Below are positions 5,501 to 29,200 of a stretch of 64,000 bases of DNA, piece after piece. The notes beneath the pieces were generated by a model. The model was given only the letters and a program-made list of their open reading frames with translations, searched no databases and had not been told where the DNA came from. The position numbers and the translations under genes were made by a program. The stretch's first letter is position 1, and every line of letters starts with the position of its first letter. The DNA is taken from the NCBI GenBank assembly GCA_949126835.1, contig OX421494.1, forward strand, positions 17,965,538 to 18,029,537. Reading direction: 5' to 3'. Origin of the DNA: Anisus vortex. Taxonomy: Eukaryota > Mollusca > Gastropoda > Planorbidae.

Positions 5501-8120
5501 GTCAATATAAAATCTTTAAAACAAGTCTTAAAATGTATTACAATTAATTATAGTAAAGATCTAGACCTTTCCGTTTCAAATCTATTTTAAACATAAAAGC
5601 CAGCGTTTAATATTTTTTTACTTGTTATAAGGGGGGGGGGGGGGTAACGAATTGTTGACGTAATTATATAGGGGGGGTCTCTGAAAGTTTGACAGTTGTT
5701 GACAAGGGGGAGGGGGGGAGGTAAAAATCGCCAAAAAATTGTTGACGTAATTAATGGACGTCCCCTTAGTCAATTTCAGCACTATTAGTCAATTTCAGCA
5801 CTATTAGTCAATTTCAGCACTATTAGTAAATTTCAGCACTATTAGTCAATTTCAGCACTATTAGTCAATTTCAGCACTATTAGTCAATTTCAGCACTATT
5901 AGTTAATTTCAGTACTATTAGTCAATTTCAGCACTATTAGTCAATTTCAGCACTATTAGTCTTCTCTTGATGAAATTAAAAAATCTTTAGTCAAAATTCT
6001 AAATTTTGAGAGAAAACAAAAAACGTACATGATCAGGTTTCATCATTTCAAATCCACAGTGGCGATTGATCAGTTCTTCCTGTGTGATGAAAAACAAACA
6101 TCTAATTTTAGATTTTGATTTGAAAATAGCTTCAAAATTTTAAATAGAAATTCATGCATTTTATTCTTTTGGACAAATAAGTCTTGCTCTACATTTAAAG
6201 CTAAAAATCTAAATCATAAAGAAGGTAGAAAACACCACGAGTATAATGTGACAATATGCATTGAATAATACGACTATATATATATGCCTACTTCAGCGTT
6301 AGGTCTACAGCAAGAAAAAGGCACCCCACAAGCCTCAACACCTGGTGAGGAACAATTGAAGTAGATATTGGATTCCCAGTCTCGAAAGTTTTGTACTCCA
6401 CAACAATTCAGCTGAAAAGTTTGTAAAAAAAACTACAACATTTAATTTTTGGAAAGTAAATGAATGACAAATGTATAATTCAGTTTAAGGCAAATATAGA
6501 TTTTAATCATTTACATTTCTTTTACAAAACTCTATTAAACCAATTGAATGATTCATATCATAGTGTGTAAGTAAGAGACAAAATTCCATTGACTACATAG
6601 TAAATATAATATAATTTGTATACTGTTTGTAACTGTGCATAAGTCGCAATAGTAGATAGGTCACACCTTTAGTTTAGAGTTATTTTAGTAATACTTTGTA
6701 GTTGATTTAATCTAGGGAATTACACTGGCCATTCTTAACATTATTGTTTTTTTTTAAATCACATTTTCAAAGACATAAAAGTTCCAAAATATTCATCTAA
6801 ATTTTGAACCTTCTTTGAATTATAATTACAAGCTGATAATTACCAAGGGAGCTTTAGTAAATCTTATTGTTTTTAATGATTCTATAGAGAAAATTATTGC
6901 TCTTCCCTTAAAGGCACAAACTTTTCATGACCAGCAAATTTTGGTATCTCTCTCACATTCAAACTAATTATACATATCAACTGTTATTTCTTGATTAAGT
7001 TTGAATTATAAAACTACATGATAAAATTGCTCATTGAAAATGAACTATGTTTAAGGTATTTTATTTTTCCTGCCTGGTAAAAAAAAAATGGTGCAAACCA
7101 ACTGGTGTATTTTTTTTTTAATGAAGGCCTACGCTGATCCTGGTAATTCTGCATTACCTATAATCACCAATATGAATGGTAGTTGCAATTTTATGACGGA
7201 GTAACTTTTTTACAATAACTTTTTTACAACTGTACAGACATTTTTGGTAGAAAAAAAAAGTGTGACCTATATATTGTGTTTATATTGATAGATTCTTTTA
7301 CCCAATCTCTCTGGACCCAGTCTACTAAATTGTTCAAGTCAAGGTCGTCCCTGTAGTTGACAATCATGTTTTTCACCTGAAACTGGATGGAATCTCTCAC
7401 CTGTTGGAAAAAAAGAAAAAACATTTTTCTGGATGAATTGGTGTTGTTACAATTGTGAAATTGTGACATTAACTCAACAATTGTCAAATTGTGACATTAA
7501 CTCAACAAATCTACAGTTCAGGGTGGATCTAATGCATGAAGTCATATTGAACAATAAAAACATTATCTTAGTGAACTGTAATTAAAAAAGAAACAATTGA
7601 TGTTTCTCCATGGGTCTAAACAATTTTAGTTGCTTCCCTTGAATTATTTATATTTACATGTCCTATAGACTGCTGAGGACATTATTACATTCTGCATTCA
7701 TGTCCTATAGACTGCTGAGGACATTATTATTACATTCTGCATTCATGTCCTATAGACTGCTGAGGACATTATTACATTCTGCATTCATGTCCTATAGATT
7801 GCTGAGGACATTATTACATTCTGCATTCATGTCCTATAGACTGCTGAGGACATTATTATTACATTCTGCATTCATGTCCTATAGACTGCTGAGGACATTA
7901 TTACATTCTGCCATCATGTTTTAAGACAAGGGTGGTAACAAACAACACCAAAGTTTACAACAATTTTTTTTACCCAGTCTTTGTAAACAAATCCCAGAAT
8001 TCCAATCAGAAGTTCAAGCGAAAAAATGAGTCCAAGTGAGATCATAAACTGTAAAAAAAAATATATAAAGGTCAGTGTACATTCAATATAAGACAATGTT
8101 ACTTGTTATCATCATTGAGC

Positions 8121-8152
<32 letters not shown>

Positions 8153-11100
8153 GAAGTGCACATGGTCTCTTTTTATTAGAAGAAAAAGTTCCATCAGGAA
8201 TTGTTAGAAGTCTATCTACTTGGAGTTGGAGTTAGATGGTTAAGCAGCAACCAGCATTATTACGCTGCATTCTGTACTACTCATCATCTTTTTTTGTAAA
8301 GAATACCTTGTCAGACGCGACATTCTTTACACCTTCCTTGTTGGAAATATTCAAGTTGATGATTTAGTAAATTAATTTTAAACAAAAAAAGGCTGAAGAG
8401 CTCCTGTGGTATGTGTTTTCAACTCAAGTAGATCTGTGCCAATTTGCTTAATTAACATACTCTTCCAAAAATGCCAGAAGACACTTTTTCTTCCAATCAA
8501 TTATGGCATCATAAAGAAAACTTTTTCTCATCTACACAAACAGTTACAAACCCATAATAATAAAAGAAATAGATCTACCAACACACACATACATAGTTAA
8601 ACACATATACATAGCATAACAAATTACACCTTATACAGTGGGGTCATGCAATAAGAAACAAGTGTATAAAGAGCGAGAACTTACAAACAATAAGAGACAA
8701 GTGTATAAAGAGCGAGTACTTACAAACAATAAGAGACAAGTGTATAAAGAGCGAGAACTTACAAACAATAAGAGACAAGTGTATAAAGAGCGAGTACTTA
8801 CAAACAATAAGAGACAAGTGTATAAAGAGCGAGTACTTACAAACAATAAGAGACAAGTGTATAAAGAGCGAGTACTTACAAACAATAAGAGACAAGTGTA
8901 TAAAGAGCGAGAACTTACAAACAATAAGAGACAAGTGTATAAAGAGCGAGTACTTACAAACAATAAGAGACAAGTGTATAAAGAGCGAGAACTTACAAAC
9001 AATAAGAGACAAGTGTATAAAGAGCGAGTACTTACAAACAATAAGAGACAAGTGTATAAAGAGCGAGTACTTACAAACAATAAGAGACAAGTGTATAAAG
9101 AGCGAGTACTTACAAACAATAAGAGACAAGTGTATAAAGAGCGAGAACTTACAAACAATAAGAAACAAGTGTATAAAGAGCGAGTACTTACAAACAATAA
9201 GAGACAAGTGTATAAAGAGCGAGTACTTACAAACAATAAGAGACAAGTGTATAAAGAGCGAGTACTTACAAACAATAAGAGACAAGTGTATAAAGAGCGA
9301 GTACTTACAAACAATTAGAGACAAGTGTATAAAGAGCGAGAACTTACAAACAATAAGAAACAAGTGTATAAAGAGCGAGTACTTACAAACAATAAGAGAC
9401 AAGTGTATAAAGAGCGAGAACTTACAAACAATAAGAGACAAGTGTATAAAGAGCGAGTACTTACAAACAATAAGAGACAAGTGTATAAAGAGCGAGTACT
9501 TACAAACAATAAGAGACAAGTGTATAAAGAGCGAGTACTTACAAACAATAAGAGACAAGTGTATAAAGAGCGAGTACTTACAAACAATAAGAGACAAGTG
9601 TATAAAGAGTGAGAACTTATAAACAATAAGAGACAAGTGTATAAAGAGTGAGAACTTATAAACAATAAGAGACAAGTGTATAAAGAGTGAGAACTTACAA
9701 ACAATAAGAGACAAGTGTATAAAGAGCGAGTACTTACAAACAATAAGAAACAAGTGTATAAAGAGCGAGAACTTACAAACAATAAGAAACAAGTGTATAA
9801 AGAGCGAGTACTTACAAACAATATAAGACAAGTGTATAAAGAGTGAGAACTTACAAACAATAAGAGACAAGTGTATATAGTGCAAGTACTTACAAACAAT
9901 AAGAGACAAGTGTTTAAAGAGCAAATACTTACAAACAAAAAGAGACAAGCATATAAAGAGTGAGTACTTACAAACAATAAGAGACAAGTGTTTAAAGAGC
10001 AAATACTTACAAACAAAAAGAGACAAGCATATAAAGAGTGAGTACTTACAAACAATAAGAAACAAGTGTATAAAGAGAGAGAACTTACAAACAATAAGAG
10101 ACAAGTGTATAAAGTGTGAGTACTTACAAACAATAAGAGACAAGTGTTTAAAGAGCAAATACTTACAAACAATAAGAGACAAGTGTATAAAGTGTGAGTA
10201 CTTACAAACAATAAGAGACAAGAGTTTAAAGAGCGAGTACTTACAAACAAAAAGAGACAAGCATATAAAGAGTGAGTACTTACAAACAATAAGAGAAAAA
10301 GGTATAAAGGGGAAGTACTTATAAACAATAAGTATTGTATTACTGTATTGTATTTATTATTATTACTGAATACAGTAGCACAGACTTGAGCACACGTTAG
10401 ATCAGGTTCAGATGAAAGTTTATTACATAGTATACAAAACATCATTGGACGAATAAGATAATTACACACAGTTCTCAATAGTCTTTCGAATCTTCACTTA
10501 TATGTTACTTCAATAATATCATTACTTCTCACTAGAACACTGACTGTATCTAGCTCTTTAAAATAGACTTTAATTATACAACAATATTCTAAGTCTCACT
10601 TTGGAATTGAATCACTTAAGTTTTTATTACACTTAGTCCAATAGAACTTATTATAAAAAATGCACCTTCTATCTGAAGGATCCAACATGTACTGATTATT
10701 CACACATTATATAATAATATATTATAATATATCTGTATGTTTAAAGTAACTTTTCTTATTCATTTTCTCTTCATTCATAATCTTCAATGCATAACTAAAT
10801 GTGTTTTTCATCAATTAATAATTAAGTTATATTTTACAATTGTATGAAGAGCGAGTACTTACAAACAATAAGAGACATGTATAAAGAGGAAGTACTTATA
10901 AACAATAAGAGACATGTGTATGAAGAGCGAGTACTTACAAACAATAAGAGACATGTATTCTCCCTGAGTGCACCAACACAGCCCGTGAAGCTCATACAGA
11001 ACATGGACATGCCCACCACTATGAACAACAGGGCAGGGTCTAAGGCAATGTTGGTCAGCCGAGACACATTCTGGAACACGTCCTTCTCTGACCAGGCCCA

Positions 11101-14100
11101 CAGGCCTATGGCTAGCAGAAGCAGACCAATCACCTGCAGCGAGAACAGGCGGTCAGATTAATTTGATTTGTGTTTCACTTAAAAGGTATTTTTCATACAT
11201 GTAGATCAAGACAAATCCAATATTGAGAGCATAGCAATACAAGAAGGAATAAATAGCAAAAGCTACGTTATGTTGGCACATTCAAATGCAATATAATTAA
11301 ATCAACGCTTGGACCAGTGCTCCTGCTCGGAACAGTGAACTAATATTATCTTATATTATGTTATCTTATTTTGTGTGCTCTTGTATTATTTTATGTGTTA
11401 TTATGTTGCAGATGTTAATTCTGAACCGAACAAGACTGCCTCCTGTCCTATGCTGGTATGTCTAGTCTTGTGTTTTGATTTATATAAGGATTTCTAATGC
11501 TGTTAAGCTTTTAATTTTCCAAAGTTTGTTCGGGCAACCCATTCATTGTCTAAATGCCATTTAAGTGTGAAAGATAATTTAGATCAACGTCATATATGAA
11601 TTAGTCCTTGCATATAGGCACAATACTAAAAAAAAAAATATTTTTTACTTTTCTGGTGAAAGAAAGAAATTTAGCATTTTAATTTTATCTTTAATAACTT
11701 ATTTTTATTTAAGACCCTCTTCACAATGTAGGCCTAAGTCTAGACGGGTAAACAGGTAAACGTAGGACGCAATACTCTTCAGCATAGAAGGACCGTCTGT
11801 AACATATAAGATAAGGTTGAGGGGGGATGGTGAGTATTTTTGTGGGCCATAATGAATATAGATCTGTGAGTTACACAACATCCTCCCCCCCCCCACCACT
11901 ACCACCCTGGCTGTCTCCTAATATAATCAAGATAATAATATATAATCAACTGTATTACATTTTTGTTAAGGTTTCATTTGAAATCATTTCATTCATTTCC
12001 TATAAATTGTACTTTTGCCACTCTTTCTGCACGTGAAGTTTGTTATAATTTCACAAAAAGTTAACGTCCCTTTAGGGCATGGGTTCTCACTGGGGGCGTT
12101 ATCGCCCCCCCCCCCCTGGGGGGCGGCGATAAGCTTTGGGGGGGGGGGAGAGCGCCGATGTTCCCGGGGGTGATTGGGGGGGGCGGTGAATGGCAAGTGG
12201 GCGGTACAAACGTACCTGATATAATTTGAACACCTCAGCTAATTGAATCGATTAGTTTTTGGATGAAATGTGATAAAAACGCAAGTGCTGCTAAATATCT
12301 GATATCCCCCAACAGGAGGCATACATAGTATTATACTAATAAGAAATAGGAATAGCATGAACTTTTCGAAGAAGCAGGGGTCAGTATTGGACACGTATGG
12401 TGTGCTGCCACCTGGTCCTGTGGTTAGTACACCGGACTCTCAAAAGTCGCGGGTTCTATCCCTGCCGCCGACCGATCCCTGTCTTCTAATATTAATGATA
12501 TTTTAATTAATATTAATGATATTTTGATCTCAGTTTAACTGAGATGACCTTATATTTATTATGCATAGGCCGAAACATATGACAAAAATATTATAGTTAA
12601 GCGAAATAGATATGTAATAATCATTCAAACTGGGTAGTTAATGTAATGTTTGAAAAATAAATACAATTTTCGTCATATAATATGGAAATATTCTAAATAA
12701 TTCTGAATAATTTAAATACTTTTTACAGTTCGATCATTTCAAATGTATAAATTGGAAGCCATTTTTGTTTATAAAAGAAAAAAAACATTAGAAATATTGG
12801 CTCAAATAAAACGGGATAATTATCTCCCTTTAATAAAAAAAAATAATTGTTTCCACATTTGATTCAATAGTGATGCAAAACAAGTTCTGTTTTGTAGTAT
12901 AACAAATATTACTGACTAATTAATATTTTTTATATACATTCAATATTATGGTATTGATAACAAGATTTAATTATTTGAGGATGTTTGAACATTTGATATG
13001 TAGTTAAATTGTGGACTCTTTTTTCCTCGGTCCTAACGGGGTCTCCACAATAATATGATGAAGAAGAAGGATTAAAATAATTAACGTTAAACAGTTGTAA
13101 ATAAACATTTCCTGCTTAATTGTTTGTCCATTTAAGCAGTTTAAATTTTAAACATTAATAATTACACAATATAACGTTATTAAATAAGTCTATTACGTTT
13201 ATTAAATTAATAATACAAATAAATTCGTTTTAGAATTAATTATATTTATGTTTAATTAAAGAAGATAATGGTATGAAAAAATTATAAACGCAACTGTATG
13301 GGAAAGGACAGCCCATATTCCAATAGAACAAGAAATACAAAAAAAGGAGATGGAGATGGATAGGACACACAAGGAGGAAACCAACTACAAATTTGACTAG
13401 ACAAGCTCTTTCATGAAATTGACAGGGTGCAAGACGAAGAGGTAGACCAAAGAACACCTGGCGGAGAGAAGTAGAAAAGGGTGTGCAGATGATCGGGAGA
13501 AACTGGAAGGAGTTAGAGAAGATAGCCAGAGACAGGAGGACATGGAAAGAAATTGTTGATGGTCTATGCTCCACTAGGAGTTGATAATGGCGAAGAAGAA
13601 GAAGAAAGAAGATGAGCATAAAAACTCGTTTCAATGTAATAGTAATTAGTCTCTATCAATTAATGACGGTCAAGTGTAGGTGACTTCCTGTGCGCGTACA
13701 ACAGTTTCAATGTTATAGTAATTAGTCTCTATCAATTAATGACGGTCAAGTGTAGGTGACTTCCTGTGCGCGTACAACAGTTTCAATGTAATAGTAATTA
13801 GTCTCTATCAATTAATGACGGTCAAGTGTAGGTGACTTCCTGTGCGCGTACAACAGTTTCAATGTAATAGTAATTAGTCTCTATCAATTAATGACGGTCA
13901 AGTGTAGGTGACTTCCTGTGCGCGTACAACAGTTTCAATGTTATAGTAATTAGTCTCTATCAATTAATGACGGTCAAGTGTAGGTGACTTCCTGTGCGCG
14001 TACAACAGTTTCAATGTTATAGTAATTAGTCTCTATCAATTAATGACGGTCAAGTGTAGGTGACTTCCTGTGCGCGTACAACAGTTTCAATGTAATAGTA

Positions 14101-17100
14101 ATTAGTCTCTATCAATTAATGACGGTCAAGTGTAGGTGACTTCCTGTGCGCGTACAACAGTTTCAATGTTATAGTAATTAGTCTCTATCAATTAATGACG
14201 GTCAAGTGTAGGTGACCTCTTTGTGCGCGTACAACAGTTTCAATGTTATAGTAATTAGTCTCTATCAATTAATGACGGTCAAGTGTAGGTGACCTCTTTG
14301 TGCGCGTACAACAGTTTCAATGTTATAGTAATTAGTCTCTATCAATTAATGACGGTCAAGTGTAGGTGACCTCTTTGTGCGCGTACAACAGCTTTGATGT
14401 GCGATAAAATCTGTTCACATGTATAAGTTGAACCAAAAGCTGAAAGTAAAAGAGCGAATGCCTAGCAGTTGAGAATAGCATATACGACTTTCCTAAGCAG
14501 CTACCTTGCAGATTTTTTCCGCAAATGGGCACATTTGGATGCCTATTTTTAAAAGGTTTAAAATTCAACTTGCTCCATTTTTAAATCACTAATATTCCTC
14601 CACTTAAAAAAAGATCTACATCTAAGAAGGTTCTAGTAATAACAAACCAGTTAGGCTTGGTGAGTGTGGTATGAAAAAATGATTCCATCAATTTTAAAGT
14701 CTTGCCTTTGATTAGAAAACTCTATGAGTGCTATGATGTTCTTCTGAAAAAGACGAGCTATCTATCCTAAAAGATTCTTTAACATAACTGTATGTACATA
14801 TAGTTAAATGCTTTGAAATTGATTTCACGGCAAGATATATCCAGTTTCAACGCAAACCTATTCCAGTGGTCGTTGTAAATGCAAGTTCAACTTACTAACT
14901 AAAATGTGTCAGAAACATCGGCTTCAACAGTCAGTTTTCCTCATTCAGAACCGGAAGAGGTTGTGGTTTTTATTAATAACAACACATCTTGGAGGTCTCT
15001 CGCGTGCCATTGAAAATTGCTCTGCGTGCCAAGTTTGTCACGAAATCCTTTGGTTGCCGAACCCTGATTTAGAGTGAATTGTGAGATGTCCTTAAGACAT
15101 TCAAATTTCCTTTCGAAAAATAAATAAATAGAAAAATCTATTTGACTACTTGTACTAGAAGACTTTTTAGTGTAAAAGAAATTCCTCCAGCGGCGATGGT
15201 ATGGCATATCGTAGATTGACGTTGTAGTTAAAAAGTAGTCTGTTCCAGATGTAGCCTATTGGCTGTCTATTGTGTGACAACATTTAGTTACTAAAAGTCT
15301 TGGTGATTATCTGTATCGCTCACTACAATTTTACAGCCATTCACAAATAAGAAATACTTGCAAAGATTTTTTAGACAGCTTTACATTGATACCTTAAATT
15401 AATTTATTCCGTCGTCGTCGGCATCCGTCCGTCTCGAGAGACGATGGTGTAGCCTCATGGGTGAGGTGTCCAACTGCATCGCCGAGAATGGCTGTGTAGA
15501 CCAACCCGGGAGTGGCAATCCCTGCAGCACTTGAGGCATTTGAAGGCGGATGGCTGTTGTAGCAGGTGTTTCCGCCTCGCTCTTTTCTGAATGGCAGGCT
15601 CATTGCGCCCAGTTTCTGCGCTGGATGTGCCACCCCTGACTGCGAGCCTCCAGGTTGGTCGGTCAGCAGCTTGACATTCCCATGTGTCAAGGTCAATGGA
15701 GCTCTGGATCAAGTCTCTTTTGCATAGGTCCTTGAAGCGCAGTTTCGGGCGCCCTGTCTTCCTTTGACCTTCGACCAGTTCTCCGGAGAGGAGGTCTTTG
15801 GGAATGCGGCCTGCATTCATTCTCTTTACATGGCCGAGCCACCTGAGTCGTTAAGCACAGCATGAAGGCTGCTCATGTTGGCTCTCTCCAGTACCTCTGT
15901 ATTGGAGACCCTAGCCTGCCACTGGATCTGCAATATGCGCCGTAGGCACCTCATGTGGACGCTGTGAGCTTCTTTTACAGTTCATGAACTTTTCAGCAAA
16001 ATTAAACCAAAACATATAATAAACTATATTAAAGACATACAACTGTACAACAAAATCTAAAGATATAAGAACAATAAAATGAATACAAGAGAAAAATGAC
16101 AACAACGTTATCAAAAAGGCCCTATATAACCTTCGATGTTGATGAGCCGGAAATTCAACAATTCAATTCAATTCAATGCCTCGCGTAGGTGGTCCACGAC
16201 TCACAGCCATACAGGAGAGTGCTGAGTAAACAGGCGTGGTAGAAGCGCAGTCTGGTCTTCTCGGTGAGGCTGGAGTTGTCCCACACTCACTGTTTCAGTT
16301 GGGCCATGACTGTGGCTGCCTTGGCGATCCTGTTGTTGATCTCCGAGTCGATGGACTGCGAACTCGAGATAGTGGACCCAAGGTAGGTGAAGTTCTCGAC
16401 AACCTCCAAGGTGTGTCCATCGATGACAATATTTGGAGGGGTCTCTGTGCCCTGAGCCATAACGTTAGTCTTTTACAGGCTTACGGTCAAGCCGAACCCC
16501 TTGCATGCATGGGAGAAGCAAGTGACAAGCTGCTGGAGTCCCTCTTCGGTATGTGATGTCAAGGCTGCATTATCAGCGAAGAGCATCTCGCGAATGAGGA
16601 CCTTTGTGACTTTGGTCTTGGCACGAAGACGCCCTATATTGTAGAGCTTGCTATCAGACCTGGTGTGTATGAAGACACCCTCGCCGCAGTCCTTGAAGGC
16701 GTGTTGGAGGAGCACAGACAAAAACATCCGAAGAGTGTAGGCGCGAAGACGCAGCCCTGCTTTACTCCGCTGCTGACTGGGAATTCCTTAGAGGTTGCGC
16801 CATCGTAGCAAACAGTGCTGTGCATGAAGGACCTGACCACCGCAAGCAGGTGTGGGGGACATCCAATCTTCTGCAGCAAGCTGAATAGTCCACCTCGACT
16901 GACCAGATCAAATGCCTTTGTGAGGTCGATGAAGGCTATATAGAGTGACCTCTGCTGTTCCTGACACTTCTCCTGGAGCTGGCGTAGTGAGAAGATCATG
17001 TCCACTGTTGATCGACCAGCCCTGAAGCCACGCTGTGACTCTGGGTAGATGCGTGAAGCGAGGGCCTGCAGGCGGGCAAGGACGACGCGGGCGAACACTT

Positions 17101-20100
17101 TACCAACGATACTGAGGAGGGAGATGCCCCGATAGTTGTTACAGTCGCTCCTGTCACCTTTGTTTTTATACAAAGTGACGATGTTAGCATCTCTCATGTC
17201 TTGAGGAATGTAACCCTTTTACCAGCAGAGGCAAAGGAGGTCGTGGAGTGGCTGTAGTAGGGCTGGCTATTAATTAATTATTATTATTAATATCTGTATT
17301 ACTATTATTGTCTCGATATAAATTTTTTTATTGTTTGCCAATTTTATAATTTTCTTGTTATGTCTTTGACTATACCTTTAGTGTCTTTATTGTACTTATT
17401 GTTTGTACTATGTGGCAAAATAAATATTGTTCATTATTCATAGACGAGGACTACAAGTGATGGCTACTGCACACACTGGTGCGTTGGTTAGTAAAAGATG
17501 AATGACCGTTTAAATATAATGAATGAGATTTGGATTCGGTGTTTTTGAAAAGCAAATGCGATTCTTTGGTGGAAAATCAATCCGTTTATCTAGGTCTGTG
17601 AGTTTTGGCAACAATTTTGTATTGCATTCTTATCAACTTCTTTTGGGGAAAATGGATTTTATGCTAATACCATTTTTTTTTTCAAAAAAGAAAAACAAGA
17701 CAAGCTGCAAATAGTGAGGCGTGGAGACCTAAGGCTTTTGCAACCAAAATTGAAACAAATATAGACAAACTACTAGCAACACACCGGGCAAACGAGTGAC
17801 ATTAATATTGAATTTTTAAGCCTCTTGTTTAGGTAATTTTTTGATCTATTAATTCTTACAATAAGTTTTCTTTTCAGTTTTTTTTTAAAGATAATAAATA
17901 AGCTCAAAAATCTAGTCGGCCTTAAAAAATTGCTGAAACTATAATGACCCTTTAATTTTCAGAAGATTGGCGGTGATGGGGGGGGGGGGTGGACGCTAAG
18001 GAAAAGATGGGGGGGGGGTGCGGTGAGCATAAAAAAATGTAAAAGGGGGTGGTGAGCCGAAAAAGGTTGAGAACCTATGGTTTAGGGTTATTCTTGAGGC
18101 TGAGCCCCGAGACCCAAACCCCTCCACCATCACCCCCCCCTGCCCCAACAACCTCATGGTTAATCCGGAGCTTATTCTGAGTTCATATATTAGTAGGCCT
18201 ATACATATAAATATAAAACATCTATCTAACAGAGTCTTCAGGCAGCCACACGCAAAGAAAGAAAAAAAAGCTTTAAAAAGCTTTAAAATCTTCTGAAACT
18301 AATGAAAGAAAAATTAGATCTACGTCAGGCAACAAGAATATAATAAACACCATGTTATTGATAAGAAGTGTCTTAGCCAAGGGAGCAAACCCACAAGTCG
18401 ACAACTTTTATTAATTTCGCGTGCATCCATTTCTTTATTTATAATTTAGGTCTCGATCTATCGTCACTTTCAGGACTTCACAATTATTTATCACCCGATC
18501 CATCATTTGTATCCAATTTAAAAACATATATATTAGCCCTTCAATATTTCTCTCTTTTAATTTTCTATGCTTGCTTGTAGCTAGACTATATCAAGTTATT
18601 CACACAAACCTCAAAGCAAAAATATCGAATTATAAGCCAATAACTCATTATTAAAAAAAAAAAATTATATAAAAGATTAAAATTATAAGTTATTATCCTA
18701 TTTGTATTAGATAACGAAAATATAAAAATGACTTAAGAAAATACACACTGAAAAAAACAATGACACAAAAAGTAAATCTTAAAAAAAATAAACAATTAGG
18801 CCTAGTCTATTGAGATTTTAAAATATAAATAGCGTGGTTAACTAAAATGGAGCAAAAAGAAATGGTCTATTCTCTAGTTAAAATATTTAAATAGAGTATG
18901 TTTAGATCTACTGCTGGCTTCGTCGCCTCATTGTTTGCATGCAGTTTAAAATATGAGGATAACGGTTACATCTTATTAACACACTTAAAGAATATCATTT
19001 GAAGAATTTATTGGACTGGAAGTGCATGATTATATGTGTGTGTGTGTGTATCTGTGTATCTGGATATGAGGTACAGAAGGAGTGTGTGTGTGTGTGTGTG
19101 TGTGTAGGAAGACAGACCAAAAGAAAGATGTTGAGTCATATACAAACATTTGGGGGTGGGGGTGGGTGGGGGTCCAATAGATCCAACTTAGATCCAAGCG
19201 ATCCCGTGCCACGTGACAGTCTACTGCGTGACGGAAGACGTCGCGCGTGCAATGAGCCAGCCGTATAACTAAATTAGCAGAAGACAAGTGTCGTCATAGA
19301 GAACTTTTTTTTCTCCATTTCGTGTCTATCAGAACAAAACAAACAAAAAAAAAATTGGAAGGAGTTGAGCTTCACATTAAAAAAAAACTGTTCCACGGAG
19401 TTGGCTATAGACAAAATCATGTCACGAACTAGTCTGCGTTATGGAGAAATGCAGAAGAATGGCGTCGTGTGTTTATATTTCAAATAAAAATGTTGTTGGC
19501 AATATTTTACCAATAAAAAAGTCCTTCTTGGCTTTCATTTTAGAATCAGATGACAGTCGTGGGTCCAAGTCGAACTAGAACATATTTCAGCATGGGTGTA
19601 ACATTATTACTTAAAACTCTCAATTTATAGATTTATATTTATATTTATAGAAACACTTCAGAAAAAAACGAATCGTTGTAATACTATATAAAGCATCCCT
19701 CATTGTATGTCGATGATGCTTCCAAAGTGAGAATTGGTAAGGCGAGAGCTGCATTCAACCAATTGAAAGAGGTCTAGACCTGCGGCAACTTGACCCTCAA
19801 GACTAAAGTTAGGATATTCAACACCACTGTGAACTTGTGAAGCCTGTCTTGTTGTATGGAGCAGAAACATGACGAACAACAGCAGCTTGTTCTAGAAAAC
19901 TACAGACATTTATCAACTCATGTCTCCGAAAGATCCTCAGAATCTGCTGGCCCAACGTCATCACTAACGAGGAACTCTGACGAGGCACACGGCGGGAACC
20001 GGTGGAAGAACTAATCCGACAGCGCAGATGGAAATGGATTGGCCACACTCTTAGAAAACCCGCATCCAGCACCACGAGACAAGCCCTTACTTGGAATTCA

Positions 20101-23100
20101 CAGGGCAAGAGAAAGGGAGGTCGACCCAGAATGACCTGGAGAAGGGAGCTGGAGGCAGACACCAAAAAGAGTGGTCACAACCACAGAATAGGTATATATA
20201 TATATATTTATTTATTTTGTGGTCACAACTGGTGACAGTTTGAAAGACTGGCCTAAGACCAAAACGCATGGAGAGCCTTTGTTCGTGGCCTATGTCCCAG
20301 ACGAGACGACAGGCGTGGATGATGAAAGATGAAAAGAATTCTAAAATATGTAGTTTTTTGTTACATTTTCTTCTACCTGTTTATAATGGAAAGATTCATA
20401 AATGTGTATGCTTTGGGCTCTACGTCAACTGAACTCATTGCCCATTATATTTTATCTTATCTGCGCTTAGGTACCGTGAACTGGCCCTCGGATCAAAAAA
20501 ATTTTGGGAGAAATCTATTAATGGACTGGAGGTGTTTCAAAAAATAACCGAATGTATTTTTTGTAAGAATGTGAGTTACATAATAATTACGGAAGTGACG
20601 TTACAAACCCCCGCCCCCTTTTCATTCGGTCCTTGCACTAAGAAGTTCTTAAATGCACTTCTGGGGAAAAAAAGTCCTTTTCTACATTTGACATTTAATA
20701 TACGAACATTGCCACCAAATGAATGACCATGATACCCTAAATTCACAAATAGGAATGTACTTTTGATCAATATATGATTGTTCTCGAAAGATTGCCACCA
20801 AAATGTGTCTTTTGTCACATTACACAGGGAAATAAAAAGAATAAAATATTATCAGAGTCCAAAAATGAGTGGCCTTTACACACACACACACAGAAAAATC
20901 AATATATAGGCCAGTTGAGATGCTACAAGTGATGGGGGGGATGTGGGGTTAAAGAGCAAGCCTAAGAAATGTAGGATCAATAAAACGGCCCACCACACCT
21001 ACTACTAACTAGATCTACAAGAAATGTGAGCTGCTATCAGAAAACAAAATTATTTCGAGTCGATATGACGGTACTCCTCTTTGCAATTCAACAAATAAGA
21101 CATCTTTAAAGGGCTACACGCCCCTTTCACGGGGTTTCCCCAACATCAACTATGTGTAAAGATGTTTCATTTTCGTTATTCCCCCCCCCCCACCTTATGC
21201 CCTTCAGTAACCCTTCCTTCCCAGTTGTTTACCCTTCCTTTGCAGTTTGTTTGTTTGTTTGTTTGTTTGTTTAGTCCACATCGTAGGAAGGAATAATTCA
21301 AATCTGAAACCGCATGCAGCATTGTTAAGTTTCCATTATCAGGTTATTTGGAAACAAAATGTGATTGTTAACACAAACAAATGCTTAAATACTCATGTTC
21401 GACTCACTTCGCAGGTATAGATCTACATTTAACTGAGGGGCGCAAGTGGGGCTCTTTACCCGCCTTACCACTCTGCAAGTTGATGTAAGACCTCCCCTTT
21501 CCCCATTAGAAATTTAATGTATCAGCGTTTCCGGAACTATTTTTTTTTCTTCACGACTCGTTTACCGTTTAGTTGTATATTTCTACTGCTGTGATGCACT
21601 AAGCTTTGTATCGCACATACTGGCCGGCAATTTATAATACTATAAATAGAACAGGTTAACCTTATAACGGATAGAGGGCAGTAGAGGCCTATGAATTTCT
21701 ACACACTCTTCATTTATCATAATATAGTGACTAGAATCGGGTTGAAATAACACAATGTATTCGTTGGAGGGGGGCGGGGTATATCGGTATCTATTTATTG
21801 CCATAGGAAGCTTACATCATAAAAATCTGACCTACATTTTGAACTTTTTCACCCTTTCTTTGTAACCTTAAGCCCCGTTAATTTTGCTTCCAGGTGCCAG
21901 GTCGAGACTCATAGCATTGGGGAAAGGGGGGGGGGCTCTGGTTTAAATGTAAATGCTTATACTTTTTATTATTCAATGGGAAGAATGAATATGGTAACTG
22001 GCTCTAATTAAAGAAGAGCTGGGTATTCCAACATTTAAACTGCAGGGAAGAATAAATGGCTGGCTCTAATCACATAAGAGATGGGTATTCCAACATTTAA
22101 ACTGCGGGGAAGAATAAATAATTGGATCTAATTAGAGAAGAGATGGGTATTCCAACATTTAAACTGCAGGGAAGAATAAATGGCTGGCTCTAATCACATA
22201 AGAGATGGGTATTCCAACATTTAAACTGCAGGGAAGAATAAATGGCTGGCTCTAATCACATAAGAGATGGGTATTCCAACATTTAAACTGCAGGGAAGAA
22301 TAAATGACAGGCTCTTATCACAGGAGAGATGGGTTTTGTTTACATTGTATGTTTATAATGTAGGCTATGTTGTATTTTTTTCTATTGTTGACCATGCTTT
22401 TTTCCTTTTATTATACGCACATTTATATGGACACATATTGTCTTTGAGCCAACATTTCTAATTAGTAAATTAAGCCTACAAATATTTTTTACAATTTAAA
22501 TTAAATTGTTACTGCAAACTGCCATATAATGTAAAAAAAAAAAAGATGTATTTATTATTTGATTATAGAACTATGTGAAAGAATATTGGCTTGGGGTGAG
22601 CACACAAATAGAATATATATATTTTTGTTAAAAGATCATTCAAATAAAAAATGATTGCCAAATATACCGTAATAGAGGCATTTGTACAAAAATGACAATT
22701 AAATTAAAGGTATTTAATAGAAATAAGTTAATGAAAATGTTTTAATATATGTTGCATCTGCAGTATTAAGTATACTTCTCCGAGAAGTTCTCCCCCCCCC
22801 CCCCTTCTCTACCCATTAATATGACTGTACCAAACCAGTATTTATTTTGGTGTTGAATTAAATTTGTAAGGTATAACAATATTTAAACTTGTTCTTTCCA
22901 AATCAAATTAAAAATAAATTATAGCCTAAGCTCATTCATAAAAATTAAAATGTATACAAAATATTTAGCATTTAATATTGTTCTTAAGTCATACAAATGT
23001 GTTATGTTTGCATAGTAAAGCAGGACAAATGTCTTTGTAAAACATGAAAATTTGAGCTAGTTGAAAGTTAAGCCTTTTGTTAAATGTATTAAGATATCGG

Positions 23101-24597
23101 GCACTACAACTTAAGGCAGGCATCCTTTGAACAGTCTGAGCAGACTTATATGTGCATTTGTGATGGCTCATTTCATTTAGACCAATATTCAACCCCCTCT
23201 CCACAATTGTCACAATTCATCTAAAAAAAGTAACACCCCCTCGTAATATGATGCCACAAAACTCCCCTCTGCCCCCCCCCCCCCCCCAAAAAAAAAAAAA
23301 AAACAAAAAAAAAACAAAAACAAAAAAAAAAAAAAAAACATTACATATCCAATTTCAGAATCAGTTTGTTTTTAAATCTCTTTTATTCTTATTGTAGTAG
23401 ATCTAAACTGAAAATCTGACTGTTTATTGTTTCAGTTTAAAAAAAACATGTTTTATCTGCAATCATAGGCAACTACATTACATTGACAAATAATTCAATT
23501 AATCATCAAATGTTGAAGATTTGAAGAGTTTTGCTCTTATTCTTCAAAAGCCATTTTATGCTTTTCAATACCCTTGATGACCCACTTGATGCACAGTGTT
23601 CAAAGTTCTTTTTTTTTTTCAATACAAAAAAAATGTATAATTAATAACTTTGGAATTATAAAAAGTTAACTGTAGGCCCTGCCAACATTAAAAGGACCTA
23701 ATATATAATTATTTTTTTTCTATTCAGAAAAGGATTATATTTATGTCCTACATATCATATAGGCATATTATTAATATATTAAAGGCCTATTATAGGTTTG
23801 AGTATGGTATTAGTATTGCAATTTGATTAGAGTGTTAAATAAGGTTAAGTTTTAGGTTTTCAATGATTAAATGCCACATTAGAAACATTTATCGTCAAAA
23901 TTATTAGTTATAGTTATAGATCTTAGTTGTAATGATGCACTGTCACTCAGCTGCTGAATGATACATTAATTTTCATAAAACAAAACTTTAAAACCTATTT
24001 TTGTTTGTTTTCTTCTTATAAAGACTAATGTTATATGTAGACCTAGTATAGACTAGATCTAGAGTGTAGAGTCTAGAGGCCTATGTTTTACTCCTTTTTA
24101 TAAAATTTCTAATTTATATTATTTTATTAGATAAAATTAAAGACTAGTCCAAGCAGGCATCAGCAGACTGTGCAGACAATTACTATTATTATCCTTAGGC
24201 CTAGAACTAAGACAAGTAGTCTATTCTATTTTAATCTAATTAATCTATTATTAACTATTAGGCTACACTATTATTAACTATTACTACTATACTTAGTATT
24301 GATTCGTATTGAATTGGCCTAATTATTAAAATAAAAATTTTAATTAAATATAGAGTAAGAATAATAAAAATTACAAGAAAACATTATGGAGATGAAAATT
24401 AAAATTCATTTAATATTTTAAATAATATAGGCCTATATATATATATCTATATAATCACACTAAAACATAAAAGTTCACATAGGTTAAATACTCACCCAGA
24501 ACAAAACATTAAATCCGAACATCAAATATTTGATACAGCAACTGACTTCTGTTCGGTCCCTTCTGGATCTGTAGCCGTAACGTCTTTTGCTTGGCAT
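2581..24597 (-). CDS. TspanC8-type tetraspanin (TSPAN5/14/17/33-like), 7 coding exons
   Basis: Four-pass membrane protein of the TspanC8 subgroup, whose known members bind ADAM10 and steer its exit from the ER and its substrate choice. Exons in coding order: 24496-24597, 10939-11133, 7974-8048, 7302-7400, 6292-6411, 6029-6079, 2581-2769. All introns are phase 0 with GT..AG ends; total 276 aa (vertebrate relatives about 270-285). The start gives [13 protein letters not shown] then [18 protein letters not shown], like the TSPAN5/14/17 N-terminus. TM1 is about 18-46, TM2 about 66-90 with [11 protein letters not shown]3 about 95-119, and TM4 about 235-260. The large loop has the CCG motif at C160-C161, IYFNC (C177), CGVPFSCC (C185, C191, C192), HCG (C205) and GCIP (C227): exactly eight cysteines, the mark of C8. 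The loop after TM1 ([16 protein letters not shown]) looks more TSPAN33-like, so orthology within the subgroup is open. Intron 1 is 13.4 kb. Confidence 0.93.
2836..3066 (+). repeat. SINE-A copy, head missing, diverged
   Basis: Matches the body of the SINE-A family (see 25975-26262) in the plus orientation: a GTCTACTCAGC..ATGGGTACCT block, then GCTGGCCAC..CAATC..CTAGTATGCCATGGCCAC near 2968-2999. An AT-rich insertion separates the blocks, and the tRNA-like head is absent. It sits in tetraspanin intron 6. Confidence 0.5.
3337..3374. repeat. 19-bp minisatellite, left part
   Basis: About two copies of a 19-bp unit (AGTCAATTTCAGCACTATT). The array continues at 5766-5962, and the two parts are separated by the 2.4-kb inverted-repeat element. 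Confidence 0.8.
3375..5765. mobile_element. PIF/Harbinger-like non-autonomous DNA transposon, 2.39 kb
   Basis: Perfect 27-bp terminal inverted repeats, starting GGGGACGTCCATTAATTACG on each strand, flanked on both sides by TTA (3372-3374 and 5766-5768). The 3-bp TTA duplication interrupts one unit of the 19-bp minisatellite, so the empty site can be read directly. TWA target duplications are typical of PIF/Harbinger. Both ends also carry G-rich subterminal blocks containing TTTGACAATTGTTGACAAGGGGG or close variants (about 3405-3470 and 5630-5730). No transposase frame is visible. The interior at about 3770-4740 is clearly richer in G+C than its surroundings. The element lies in tetraspanin intron 6. 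Confidence 0.75.
5766..5962. repeat. 19-bp minisatellite, right part
   Basis: About ten head-to-tail copies of AGTCAATTTCAGCACTATT with single-base variants (for example AGTAAATTT, CAGTACTATT). This is the same array as 3337-3374, split by transposon insertion. It lies about 70 bp beyond tetraspanin exon 6 in intron 6. Confidence 0.9.
7653..7918. repeat. 42/45-bp minisatellite in tetraspanin intron 3
   Basis: Six copies of a unit beginning ATGTCCTATAGACTGCTGAG. Copies differ by one ATT triplet (42 or 45 bp), so a plus-strand frame stays open across it by chance. The array lies between coding exons 4 (7302-7400) and 3 (7974-8048) and has no similarity to either exon. Confidence 0.9.
8120..8147. 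repeat. (TA)n microsatellite
   Basis: A run of alternating T and A in tetraspanin intron 2. Confidence 0.9.
8650..10330 (-). repeat. 39-bp minisatellite made of copies of the exon 2 / 5' splice-site boundary
   Basis: About 43 tandem copies of a 39-bp unit. On the minus strand (gene sense) the core reads GTCTCTTATTGTTTGTAAGT, matching the last bases of tetraspanin exon 2 plus the intron 2 donor (GTCTCTTATTGTTT|GTAAGT at 10939/10938). Almost all units keep GTAAGT; at least two near 9616-9660 and the last near 10318 have ATAAGT instead. Because 39 is a multiple of three, both strands give long repetitive open frames, which are not genes. Units toward 9840-10330 are more diverged than the near-identical units at 8650-9600. 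Confidence 0.95.
10331..10843. other. Unique AT-rich intron sequence
   Basis: Intron 2 DNA separating the main 39-bp array from the three exon-adjacent units. No feature is seen beyond AT-rich sequence. Confidence 0.5.
10844..10963 (-). repeat. Three 39-bp-type units including the true exon 2 donor
   Basis: Three tandem units of the same sequence as the large array. The one nearest the gene contains the real exon 2 end and donor (cut between 10939 and 10938). The next has the donor GT changed to AT (10899), exactly 39 bp on. The third has an intact GTAAGT at 10862, 37 bp further. These link the exon boundary physically to the minisatellite. Confidence 0.9.
11440..11820 (+). repeat. Diverged copies of dispersed repeat family C
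   Basis: Blocks TCTAGTCTTG..TTTGTTCGGGCAACCCATTC..TAAATGCCA (11460-11560) and GGACGCAATA..AGAAGGA..CGTCTGTAA..ATATAAGATAAG (11764-11814) match parts of the better-preserved copy at 58340-58570. The second block is inverted relative to that copy. Family C has no visible coding capacity. Confidence 0.4.
12409..12490 (+). repeat. SINE-B head (tRNA-like), truncated
   Basis: Reads like the tRNA-derived head of SINE-B (full copies at 35503 and 51408): an A-box-like GTGGTTAGTACACCGGACT followed by a B-box-like CGCGGGTTCTATCC, then GCCGACCGATCCCTGTC. It is cut off before the SINE tail. Confidence 0.6.
13262..13615 (+). mobile_element. LINE 3' end (RTE-like), pseudogenic
   Basis: The plus strand encodes, across stops, the conserved C-terminal block of an RTE-like reverse transcriptase: [23 protein letters not shown], then [15 protein letters not shown], then [21 protein letters not shown]. 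It ends in a short GAAGAAGAAG tail typical of these elements. Stops replace codons before and within the block, so it is dead. The related fragment at 19730-20330 has the same block. Confidence 0.7.
13628..14395. repeat. 76-bp minisatellite, about 10 copies
   Basis: Tandem array of a 76-bp unit starting GTTTCAATGT(T/A)ATAGTAATT and ending GTGCGCGTACAACA. Copies are almost identical except for a T/A variant near the start and a shared change (GACTTCCTG to GACCTCTTTG) in the last three copies. It lies inside the hAT-like element, directly after the LINE tail. Confidence 0.9.
15397..17262 (-). mobile_element. Non-LTR retrotransposon, 5'-truncated, broken
   Basis: Minus-strand reverse-transcriptase remnant. 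The best frame (17197 down to about 16700) has [58 protein letters not shown] and SSGVKQGC, i.e. RT blocks up to the region before the YADD box. The frame then shifts ([32 protein letters not shown] at 16727-16473 carries FADNA in place of FADDA). The C-terminal part at 15820-15455 includes [16 protein letters not shown] and [16 protein letters not shown] blocks and a [17 protein letters not shown] zinc-knuckle motif. The 3' end is near 15397. A foreign block at about 15975-16178 interrupts it. Confidence 0.8.
15975..16178. other. Insertion inside the LINE
   Basis: AT-rich block of about 200 bp that splits the otherwise continuous LINE sequence (GTGAGCTTCTT.. before, GCGTAGGTGGTCC.. after). 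It ends in repeated CAATTCAATTCAAT. Its origin is not recognised. Confidence 0.45.
18080..19729. other. Tetraspanin intron 1, low-complexity DNA
   Basis: No gene seen. Contains AT-rich DNA and GT-repeat tracts at about 19036-19050 and 19082-19105, followed by a G-rich run near 19150-19173. Confidence 0.5.
19730..20335 (+). mobile_element. LINE 3' end (RTE-like), pseudogenic
   Basis: Decayed C-terminal part of an RTE-like retrotransposon on the plus strand. Recognisable blocks, with stops and shifts between them, are [81 protein letters not shown] and a final [13 protein letters not shown] 40-bp AT-repeat insertion at about 20190-20230 is flanked by GGTCACAAC on both sides, like a small insertion with target duplication. 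Confidence 0.75.
20336..21990. other. Tetraspanin intron 1, no gene
   Basis: AT-rich DNA with scattered C and G runs and a (GTTT)n tract at 21247-21272. No supported coding region. Confidence 0.5.
21998..22335. repeat. 62-bp minisatellite, 5-6 copies
   Basis: Tandem units containing GGCTCTAAT, GATGGGTATTCCAACATTT, AAACTGCAGGGAAGAATAAAT. Copies differ at a few positions; the first and last are most diverged. Confidence 0.9.
23271..23340. repeat. Poly-C / poly-A low-complexity tract
   Basis: A run of C followed by a long A-rich tract with occasional C. Confidence 0.9.
23341..24480. other. Tetraspanin intron 1, no gene
   Basis: Very AT-rich DNA with many AGGCCTA words. Nothing else is seen before exon 1. 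Confidence 0.5.
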
Positions 24598-24604
24598 GAC
24601 GTCA
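24597..24604. promoter_or_regulatory. CRE-like palindrome TGACGTCA at the tetraspanin start
   Basis: A perfect TGACGTCA overlaps the first base of the tetraspanin start codon (minus strand). CREB/ATF sites of this form usually act near transcription starts. A second perfect site lies 74 bp before the ADAP start. Function is not shown. Confidence 0.3.
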
Positions 24605-25360
24605 AAATCAGCGCAGCCCAAAGGGCTCACTTTTAAAGATGTTTATCTGTACATTTTTATTAAAATTATAATGACATTAATCATTTAAATGTCTAATTTA
24701 ATTGTCCGATCAGGGAAAATGACAACAAAGACCCCTGGTAACTCTTCTTTTTGTAATAATCAGCTGTTGAGAATTATCTTTTCTTGAATGTTTTTACCAA
24801 ATCTATCCTCAGGTCGTCAGACTCTAAAATGGTCAAATTGCTATTGGTACTTGAAATAAATTTTAGCGTAAATAACGTGCAAATTTTAAAAAAAAAATTG
24901 AAATGTTATATTTTTTTACGTGGATTTAATTTTCATTCTATGTTGTTGTTTTTTTTTAAATTACTTTAACGAAAACTATGTATTTTAAAATGGAAAAATT
25001 GTGTAGACTCTAGGCTTACTTGTAACATAATATGAAATATGGGTTGCCCTACTGTCTACAAGAAAAGATATTTTCCTATAGGCCTACAGGCTATATTGAC
25101 TGTTAGTGTAAAGCCTGCACAATAGAATATATAAAAAAATTTACCCATGAAAATGTAAAAAAAATAATAAAAAAAATAAACCATTATTAAGTAAGAAAGT
25201 TATTCTTACTTAAATTGTTTTATCTCCCATTCCAACCATTTTTTATAAAAATAACTAGACAAGCTTATTTACAATCAGTTTGGATGTGTTTGTAGCAAGA
25301 GAGCTTAAAGTACAATAAAGTTATAGGCAGGACATTTTTCACCAAAGAGGGCAATGTCTA
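24605..25360. other. Upstream region of the tetraspanin gene
   Basis: Region 5' of the tetraspanin start on the minus strand; promoter and any untranslated exon should lie here. No TATA box or conserved element could be fixed by eye. Confidence 0.35.
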
Positions 25361-25933
25361 TAGGGCGTTTGCAATCCCGTGACAAAAAGCACGTGATTTG
25401 TGTTTACTTTGAGTAATGGTGTACAATTAAATATGGCCGCTGTATTAATAAAGTTCCATATAGGCTCGAGCTTTTTTTAAATGATGTGTTGTGTTTTAAG
25501 TCTTATTAAGATTTAAGCTGTATTATGTATGTTAAATAAAATAGGCTATTTTATTATTATCATAGACATAGATCATAGACGATGTGAGCCTAATAGTTAC
25601 TTGACTAGATAGCCTGTTCACCAACAATATCGCTTGACATCGTAGCCTAGCCTACGAAACATTAAAAGTGTATGCCTATAAAGTGAAATTGAAAGTGTAA
25701 ATAGGTCTAGCCGGCCCTAGCCTAATCACATTAATCAATTAATCTACAGTACTACTATTTACCTCCTTATTTTTGAGTAGGATAGCCAATATTCAAATGT
25801 GAATTTTGCATGATAAAGAAGTAATTTACTTTCACCACGTTATGTTTGTACCTCAAGTGGGTTCTATATTTACACAAATACGTCACTAAATGTACACAAA
25901 AAAACTTAAGCTCCACCTACTGAAAACGCTCTA
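25361..25933. mobile_element. 573-bp TA-flanked MITE, copy 1
   Basis: Starts TAGGGCGTTTGCAATCCC and ends CTGAAAACGCTCTA, with short imperfect inverted ends (TAGRGCGTTTkCA). The copy at 55770-56342 has the same length, the same orientation and near-identical sequence. TA at both borders would fit a Tc1/mariner-type target duplication. No coding capacity. Confidence 0.75.
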
Positions 25934-25974
25934 TAAGAAGGGGGCGGGGATCAGAAGGTGGATCATATTTAATA

Positions 25975-26262
25975 TTGTAAGTAAGTAAAGTTTCCCGACT
26001 GACCTACGTAATTGATCCATATGTCCGATGAAGCAGCATTCACCACTTTCTGTGGCCACGGCATACTAGGTGATTGTGTGGCCAGCACTATGCACAGCCG
26101 CCTTTACTTTACCCCAACTAATGTCAGGTACCCATCAGGGCTGGGTAGACTCAGGGACACCCTCCAGACCTGGGAAAAAATCCTAGCCTGCACCAGGATT
26201 CGAACCCGGGACCTTCGGCTCGCCAGTCGATTGTGCTGCCACTCGGCTACCATGCCCCCTAT
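25975..26262 (-). repeat. SINE-A, full-length copy
   Basis: tRNA-derived SINE in the minus orientation. The head reads GGCATGGTAGCCGAGTGGCA (A-box-like) then GGTCCCGGGTTCGAATCC (B box). The body contains CTGAGTCTACCCAGC, ATGGGTACCTGACATTAGTT and GTATGCCGTGGCCACAGAAA; it ends in a tail rich in AAGTAAAG/CTTTACTT. Other copies lie at 2836, 37503, 48425, 57985 and 63014. Confidence 0.85.
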
Positions 26263-29200
26263 ATAATATTGAGTACCGGTATATTTATGTTGTTAAGTGA
26301 AAAACTAATTCTGTAGGGTTAAAGACCATGGCAAGTCCTATGTTGTTAGTGTAAAAAACTAATAATATATAGAGATAACTTTCAATTAGAGTGTTGTCTA
26401 ACACTTTCAATTACAAATTTCTTATTATTGTGCATAATTTTAACAGTAACCATATAAATAAAACTACATCTTTATTTCTGTTTTTTTTATGAAACTTTCT
26501 TTTTAAATAGAGGGGGAAATATCATGTTCAAGTTTAGTCCCAAAATGTTGATTGATCTTTAAAAAAGACATTCCTGGTAGATTCCTGGGCGGCAGCAATT
26601 CAAGACAACTCTTCTTACCTGACAAACTCTCATAACTAGGAGTGTGAGAATTAGAGAAATAAACTCTTCATTCAAACAAGTAAATAAAGTAGTTAAAATG
26701 GTAAAAACAAACTTAACTTTATATTGTTATCAAAACTTTAAAAACTAAAGATAAATATTTTCTTACCAATGATTGCATGCAACAGCTAACCAACCAATAG
26801 CAAACAAAAAAAGAAAAAAAGGACAAAATACTTTTTCATCCAATGCTCTTTAATGAATAAAACAAACTCATTCACCCATACAGCAAAAGAATCATTCATA
26901 AAAATGTAAAGACTATTTACATTAACATTAGAAAATATGTTCTCACAAACAAATGCAAGTCTAAAAAAAAATGAATTTAGAAAACTGTTTCACAGGGTCT
27001 TGCCTAACATTTATTTTTATATAAAGGCACATATTGTTAGCAGAAAATTTTGAAGAAAAAAAAAGTATTTAAAAAGTGGCTTTTCTTATAACAAAATGTA
27101 TGAAACTTTTATTTCATAACAATAGATGATAAGTGACATTAGTTCACAGAAGATTTAAGGACGAATAAGTGTTTGTATAATCATTCACAAACCTTTGATC
27201 AGAAAATTGCTGAAAATTGTTATATCATTACAAAAACTGCATTTCAAACAAAATAGAAAAAAAAATTGTATACATATATTCTTTCAAAGTCCTTTACATT
27301 AAGCTTTGTTAAATTTACCAAAAAAAAAAATGCTATTCACTTCTCTTGTGTTTTTTTTACTTTAGCACTCTTTTGTCATTCAAAAAATAAACTTTCACAA
27401 CCCTCTATACCGATGACTGTTAATCTAATAAATTAAATGACACTGAGACTTTTTATAGTGTACAAATGGACAAAAGGTTTAAATGCATTAATATGTATAT
27501 TTGTATTCTGTTTATGATAGATGAAGTGAAACCCAAGACGAATTGACAGTAGTAGTGAATTGAAAACAAAAAATGCAAAATGTGTCAAAAAGACTAATGA
27601 GTGGTAATGATTGCAACCAATTAGAGTCAAGTATGAGATCTTGTCAGTGTAAAAAGGAATGACAAGAATGGGCAACACATTATATTTAAAAAAAAACACA
27701 CCTACATCATCACTCTTTGCTAATTAAATAAAGTCTTACCATGATTCATTATATATAACTGATTAATGTCTCACAATATATTATAGGGTGACTAGTCTGA
27801 AATTTGAAGGAAAAAAAAAGTAAAATATTTACAGCAAATGGTTGAAAAGTTAAACTGTTCAACGATAAATCAATAAATTAAAAAAAAAACAACATACTGT
27901 GGCAAAAAAACCTATGCCAAAATTTTTTAAAAAAAGATACATTTTTCTCATTCTGTTCTTAGAGACATATGTGTGTATACCCAATTCAAAGCAATCATTC
28001 CACACACAAAAATATAACACATATTTCTTCATCAGTTCATTGTTTTCCCTGTGGTCTTTAAAATAATAGTTTTGGTCTTACATGGAAAAGAAAAATAAAG
28101 AAAGCTGAAAAGGACAAAAGCTACAAGTTCAATGCAGGCCTACCTTACAGTATATCTGATTCACTATCAGAAAACAAAATATAATTCTTCAACTCTCGTA
28201 CAGCATTAGCTATATACTCATATATAAATAGGCTTTTTTTTATTTGTAAAACTTCCTTTTAAATTATGTCAAAACAAAAAGTGTGTATACATAGACAGTT
28301 CACTTTTCATCTCGTAAATTGTAAACATATTTAAATAAAATATTCAGCCAATGATAGAAATGAATCAGCTAGCTGTATTGCATGTGTAAGTTTAACTTAA
28401 TAGCAGTAAATAAGAGCAACAGTGTCAAACATTCTGAATAAAATGAAGTGAAACAAATTATACACTAACATTTGATTTTTTTTTAAAAAAGTTCTTTCAT
28501 TCATTTTCAGATCTGTAACACAAATTCATACGATAAAGTAAAAGAGAACAATTATTTTAATGACTTTCAAGCACATGTGTAATGTTTTATTAAGAAATAT
28601 ATTCCCAAGTTTTTTTCTATTGCCAACAATCAGTTATCATTTTAAATTATTAGTATTCAAAATTTGGATCAAAATCAGTCAAAGAAAACTGGCCTTATTC
28701 ATACATTTTGTTTTTTGGATTACTACTCTTCTAAAAAAATACTTTTTTAGTTTTTGGGAAAATAAATACACACCTATATGTTATTTTATTTTTGAATGGA
28801 ATGCTTAATTACTTTAACAAATATATGGATAATAATTTTTTGTTCTAAATGGTCCAGAAACTGGTACTTGGGTCCCCAAACTGGTTTTCAACAAAAGAAT
28901 GACATAAATAAAACATATATGTATATATATCAATATCAAAGTAAATAAACACTATCATTATCATAAGTTTCAATGTGATAATTCACAGAATAAACAGTAA
29001 TCTCAGTTCTTGTTATTTAAAATATATATGTATGAATAATACTTAACCAAATAGCTACATTTTTGTATCTTTTCAGTTATAACAATAATTTATGTACACA
29101 GACTTCACACAAACTCATTTACTGTCATATTGTGACATTACAAAGTGACACATATTGTGACAAGAATAATTCCTTTTTTTTTAATTAAATCCTAGCAATT

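Follow-up and report, generated by a model that had tools for sequence, protein, structure and literature searches.

Minisatellites (VNTRs) are arrays of head-to-tail units, each roughly 10-100 bp long and present in many copies, the number of which varies among individuals, and their ordinary intronic representatives constitute a known class of repeat. In the human gene IFI6 (synonyms: 6-16 and G1P3), such a minisatellite reportedly provides multiple splice donors, a finding credited to Turri et al. in 1995. The portion of PMC4526556 that concerns this gene states that two of the downstream repeat units serve as donors; hence a donor-supplying minisatellite is already in print, and the opinion of the first-pass annotation that an array of this sort belongs to no standard class does not hold. 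A second set of precedents comes from human segmental-duplication genes where, according to the relevant extract of PMC2812944, internal tandem repeats at exon-intron boundaries alter gene structure. Intronic minisatellites also figure in an earthworm paper (PMC12783039), the extract of which describes no donor array, and among the literature matches listed there was no snail case of a donor-seeded array.

Here, we examine an array located in intron 2 of a tetraspanin gene of the snail Anisus vortex. Like the IFI6 repeat, as the extract portrays it, this is a minisatellite that gives multiple splice donors downstream of an exon end, but whereas two downstream units are reported to be used in IFI6, 43 of the 45 tetraspanin copies would, to judge from the sequence alone, lead to a premature stop. 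The tetraspanin array is further distinguished from what is related of IFI6 by its 39-bp unit, its 45 copies, its interruption by an insertion and the existence of sister cases in the same genome. It shares with the cases in the PMC2812944 extract the presence of minisatellite-size repeats at an exon-intron boundary; those cases, however, involve novel introns or longer exons, many of them supported by transcripts, whereas the tetraspanin repeats lie inside an existing intron. The 39-bp unit, its head-to-tail arrangement and the homogenization of one end are all features of ordinary intronic minisatellites, from which the array differs in that its unit contains a complete 5' splice site together with that site's own exonic flank. 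Measured against these extracts, what is new is the recurrence of exon-seeded arrays in one genome; the donor-supplying minisatellite itself was already known from IFI6.

The window, by which we mean the whole stretch of 64,000 nucleotides that was analyzed, carries on its minus strand a Tspan5/17-like tetraspanin gene. Its exons 2-4, when joined, match the Pfam Tetraspanin domain (PF00335) with an E value of 4e-25 and a score of 89.2 bits (cut-off 32.1), and the closest protein match is a tetraspanin-17-like protein of Biomphalaria glabrata (92% identity). Intron 1 is 13.4 kb long and intron 2 is 2.9 kb. The two exons that matter most here are:

10939..11133, minus strand: tetraspanin exon 2 (195 nt), which supplied the exonic half of the repeat unit (from protein alignment and donor comparison)
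7974..8048, minus strand: exon 3, the downstream partner of exon 2 (from protein alignment and frame analysis)

Exon 2 ends in TCTCTTATTGTTT and is followed directly by GTAAGT (10939/10938). That the exon stops at 10939 had been assumed by the first-pass annotation; since a protein alignment of 20 rows (the host gene, molluscs, one annelid and one brachiopod) runs across the exon 2/3 junction without a gap in all 20, this assumption is confirmed, and the protein also aligns to TSPAN15. In the homologous protein model of Plakobranchus ocellatus, a block around NRHCGFDMMKTE is duplicated. The tetraspanin introns contain several other minisatellites, at 7657-7919 (42 bp), 13628-14391 (76 bp), 21998-22334 (62 bp) and 5766-5961 (19-bp unit). 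In intron 1, at about 17218-16176 of the minus strand, there are open stretches whose translation resembles, by eye, a reverse transcriptase, and these are probably what is left of a non-LTR retrotransposon.

The repeat unit of 39 bp joins the final 18 nt of exon 2 to the 21 nt with which intron 2 begins. With 43.2 head-to-tail copies and 93% matches according to TRF (8649-10332) in the one assembly analyzed, the array has the unit length and repetition of a minisatellite. A scan with the 19-base core TCTCTTATTGTTTGTAAGT, allowing at most 3 mismatches, located 45 copies, three of them proximal to the exon (P1, P2 and P3) and 42 in a main array; GTAAGT is intact in 42 of the 45 and replaced by ATAAGT in the other 3. 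The copies are arranged as follows:

10918..10956, minus strand: copy P1, 18 nt from the end of exon 2 and 21 nt from the start of intron 2, with the true donor GTAAGT starting at 10938
10881..10917, minus strand: copy P2, 37 bp, its donor destroyed (ATAAGT at 10899)
10842..10880, minus strand: copy P3, the same as P1 over all 39 nt, with a GTAAGT donor at 10862 that would shift the frame if used
8649..10332, minus strand: main array of 42 full copies (donors from 10283 to 8684; 40 GTAAGT and 2 ATAAGT), preceded by a partial first copy, M0 (ATAAGT), delimited by TRF and the core scan

The first-pass annotation had equated the unit with the junction of exon 2 and intron 2, and had named a merely chance level of identity between the two as grounds for abandoning the idea. 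The 36 bases surrounding the exon 2 donor recur perfectly (36/36) at P3 and with at least 27/36 identities at 44 positions over the following 3 kb, as against at most 21/36 for five other tested donors of the same gene and at most 23/36 for 200 letter-shuffled queries. This recurrence is far beyond chance, and the proposal stands. The repeat starts at the exon/intron junction and its units contain a 5' splice site, which gives it the anatomy of a donor-supplying minisatellite, and the claim that there are dozens of copies of a genuine donor with its exonic flank was correct. That three units adjoin the exon was accurate as to their number, but one of them, P2, has a dead donor and lies 37 bp from P3.

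The translation of the unit's exonic 18 nt is TCLLLF. Two of these residues, L96 and L97, do not vary in the 20-row alignment and T94 hardly does, and all six are the same in 9 of the 20 rows, the host gene included. The exonic half is thus coding sequence that is common to relatives, so the exon must have come first and been the source of the unit. Moreover, all 32 exact matches to the 18-mer TCTCTTATTGTTTGTAAG in the 863-Mb genome fall within the tetraspanin array and its exon; the confinement of the 18-mer to this locus, taken with the coding nature of the exonic half, argues that the array arose in place. Within the scope of this exact 18-mer search, we also rejected a dispersed repeat as the origin of the unit. 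Both observations bear on the converse scenario, in which an unrelated repeat replaced the original exon end: we found no point in its support, and since the exon end is coding sequence also present in relatives and the exact 18-mer is private to the locus, we regard it as highly improbable.

Although the first-pass annotation was right that some 500 bp separate the large array from the proximal copies, the gap appears to be a later insertion and the two arrays to be one. M0 differs from P2 at only 1 of 30 bases and from any other copy at 4 or more, and within the window GTTTATAAGTACTTCC is found in P2 and M0 only. A partial copy so close to P2, and so unlike all the others, indicates that the array was once contiguous; most simply, P1 and P2 were duplicated as a pair, which would have given P1, P2, P3 and M0 in series. 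What now separates P3 from M0 is:

10341..10838, minus strand: insertion of about 500 bp that splits the array (from repeat matches and the flanking ATACAAT)

Positions 10705-10341 of this insertion are a dispersed repeat that is present at no fewer than 39 other places in the genome (among the 40 of 410 candidates scored, its own locus included). It is truncated at its 5' side, as all 29 of the other copies compared extend further 5' with shared sequence, and at its 3' edge 24 of the 29 repeat-copy alignments stop at 10337-10341; three of the 29 (L014-L016) have common flanks and may not be independent. For the first ~134 bases of the insertion (10838-10706), there was no counterpart among the matches listed. 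The insertion is bordered at either end by ATACAAT (10845-10839 and 10340-10334), seven AT-rich bases that constitute moderate evidence for a target-site duplication. Insertion of the dispersed repeat between P3 and the next copy, after the array had grown, is thus largely supported by the sequence.

The main array is not uniform along its length: diversity is concentrated in the copies close to the exon, and those at the far end are almost the same. Among the 42 copies there are 18 unit types, the commonest of which, identical to the consensus, accounts for 16, all of them within the distal 24. It is a reasonable inference that the array may have grown at one end.

The first-pass annotation had also suggested that use of array donors in register would lengthen the protein in frame with hydrophobic repeats. 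The unit length of 39 and the long stretches of the array that are open in one frame are favorable to this idea, but it was rejected after a frame test of all 45 copies. When exon 2 is read through, the first in-frame stop occurs at 10834..10836 of the minus strand, ahead of the main array, and all 42 main copies are therefore located downstream of it. The frame remains open through exons 3-5 for only 2 of the 45 sites, P1 and P2, and the other 43 give a premature stop. P2 is the sole downstream copy that keeps the frame open, yet its donor is ATAAGT. P3, situated 76 nt downstream of P1, is out of frame because of the 37-bp spacing between P2 and P3, and its use would shift the frame and result in a stop early in exon 3. 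Nor was there any in-frame cryptic exon of at least 25 nt that follows a YAG and ends at an array donor. At the level of sequence, protein extension is thus refuted, unless one invokes an acceptor other than YAG, editing or a further allele, and we accord it a next to negligible probability.

Donor strength, as predicted from pairing with U1, does not separate the copies, since those with GTAAGT range from -5.4 to -7.3 kcal/mol and so resemble P1 at -6.8. This similarity, together with the integrity of GTAAGT in 42 of 45 copies, would be expected if the array acted on the RNA, its ~40 GTAAGT sites holding U1 snRNP on intron 2 and either blocking premature polyadenylation or slowing and tuning splicing by means of unproductive isoforms; the inserted repeat contains an AATAAA. 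The pattern of variation among the main copies, in which 17 of the 39 columns are variable, can be read in the same direction: only 1 of the nine donor bases from -3 to +6 varies (p = 0.027), as does 1 column of the 12-base block TTGTTTGTAAGT (p = 0.004, for a block chosen after the fact). The donor hexamer taken alone, however, is unexceptional (1 of 6 columns variable, p = 0.16), as is the best 12-base window anywhere in the unit (p = 0.06). Moreover, the main copies share ancestry, so that these p values are not clean tests of donor selection and recent homogenization accounts for much of the sameness. Low variation near the donor is suggestive and could mean that there is selection on U1 pairing; selection on the donor by this route is possible. 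The loss of the donor in P2, the nearest rival of the true donor, could also mean selection on splicing. Given as well that donor-bearing arrays are not in excess over a reversed-pattern control, albeit a weak one (see below), we consider an action of the array on the RNA to be unlikely.

The IFI6 precedent suggests another outcome, that some of the downstream copies function as low-level alternative donors and generate truncated or frameshifted isoforms. P3, identical to P1 over 39 nt and close by, would be the obvious candidate, and two of the downstream IFI6 units are said, in the extract of PMC4526556, to act in this manner. But P2 is dead, P3 alters the frame, and P1 ought to be favored by exon definition, and we hold such usage to be quite improbable. 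The relevant extract of PMC9225289, on an alternative-splice-site database, indicates that when two 5' splice sites are near-equal and exon definition operates (long flanking introns), the upstream one is preferred, although this is not a rule. By analogy with this preference, exon definition would predict the use of P1, exon 2 being flanked by introns of 13.4 and 2.9 kb.

Since nearly all of the copies would ruin the message if used, the array looks like a tolerated expansion rather than a device for lengthening the protein. Our preferred reading, to which we assign a probability of about three in four, is that of a tolerated minisatellite that was seeded at the exon/donor junction and later split, with the first donor still in use. 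The array would have begun when 39 bp spanning the boundary of exon 2 and intron 2 were duplicated in tandem, and would have expanded, probably by slippage or unequal exchange. It would once have been unbroken from the exon onward, as its sequence supports, and the dispersed repeat would have inserted later, between P3 and the next copy. Exon definition, by favoring the 5' splice site that lies closest to the acceptor of the same exon, may have kept the first donor in use, and transcripts that employed later copies would presumably have met a premature stop and been lost.

Other exon ends in this genome may have seeded arrays likewise, as would be expected of position-blind starts, although the sample is small and selected by motif. 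One genome search, for three AGGTAAGT at short spacings, gave 15 arrays when the matches listed, all on one contig, were grouped by eye, and each of the 15 was examined; a second, for CAAGGTAAGT three times, gave 16 by eye, of which 3, not chosen at random, were examined. The reversed patterns served as controls, and no clear genome-wide excess of donor-bearing arrays was seen, or only a slight one (2022 matches against 3604 reversed in the first search, 86 against 60 in the second), but these controls are weak, as long arrays dominate the matches and the reversed 8-mer is the more frequent of the two (18 occurrences against 4 in 161,754 bases). Of the 18 other arrays inspected, 3 start from an exon end that is backed by a protein-family match and 3 from an exon-like end; 2 are unclear (L074 and L085), and 10 showed no exon upstream. 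The six in the first two groups are:

L069: starts at the end of a PDZ exon (Pfam E 4e-10, above the cut-off; the match spans the repeated residues)
L081: starts at the end of a NEMO/TNIP-like coiled-coil exon (E 1e-6, below the curated cut-off; best PDB match TNIP2, E 0.0075; the match spans the repeated residues)
L082: starts at the end of a TRPM-like exon (E 1e-4, below the cut-off; best PDB match TRPM1, E 0.026; the match stops before the repeated residues)
L083, L084 and L086: exon-like ends without family support

In L069, L081 and L082, the exon end is repeated along with its donor. For L083 and L086, PDB searches were empty and Pfam gave nothing over the cut-off, and in the ten remaining arrays no exon was found within 300 bases upstream (the edge of L075 being ambiguous; L076, the only one of the ten put through Pfam, matched nothing), though the ten may yet include exon-seeded cases. 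Read-through continues for 1 codon before a stop in L069, L083 and L086, for 4 in L082, 9 in L084 and 19 in L081, and L081 is the only one of the six in which the second copy can be reached in an open frame.

Because a donor-like motif governed the choice of the sample, the proportion of 3 to 6 in 18 should not be taken as a rate for the whole genome. The genome is expected to contain, as a very rough figure, 20,000-33,000 AGGTAAGT sites (an extrapolation from 4 sites, and from base composition), and we take a large part of them to be true donors, which is a guess; if so many are, 3 to 6 of 18 would fit position-blind seeding. Counting the tetraspanin array, there are 7 exon-seeded or exon-like cases, and in 4 of them the intron contributes no more than 4-8 nt to the unit, which consequently stops inside or right after GTAAGT. 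The second copy has become ATAAGT in 2 of the 7, tetraspanin (10899) and L084, and the nearest rival donor is thereby destroyed. The units of L074 and L083 join an acceptor-like end straight to a donor (TTTTCAG/GTAAGT or CTTTAG/GTAAGT), an arrangement that resembles recursive splice sites. A broader proposal, that minisatellites seeded by exon and donor form a recurrent class here, spread over several gene families, some of them serving as U1-binding platforms that set splicing or prevent premature polyadenylation within introns, appears unlikely to us.

The presence in a single gene of ~40 near-identical copies of its own donor constitutes a natural test of the spliceosome's choice of 5' splice site, and arrays of this kind are natural multi-donor competition experiments. 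Their recurrence in other genes would permit the exon-definition rule to be tested on sites with a common exonic flank, and if the class of U1 platforms were real, it would provide a natural series of identical competing donors at fixed spacing. The tetraspanin array illustrates one route by which introns can grow and by which exon ends can seed repeat arrays.
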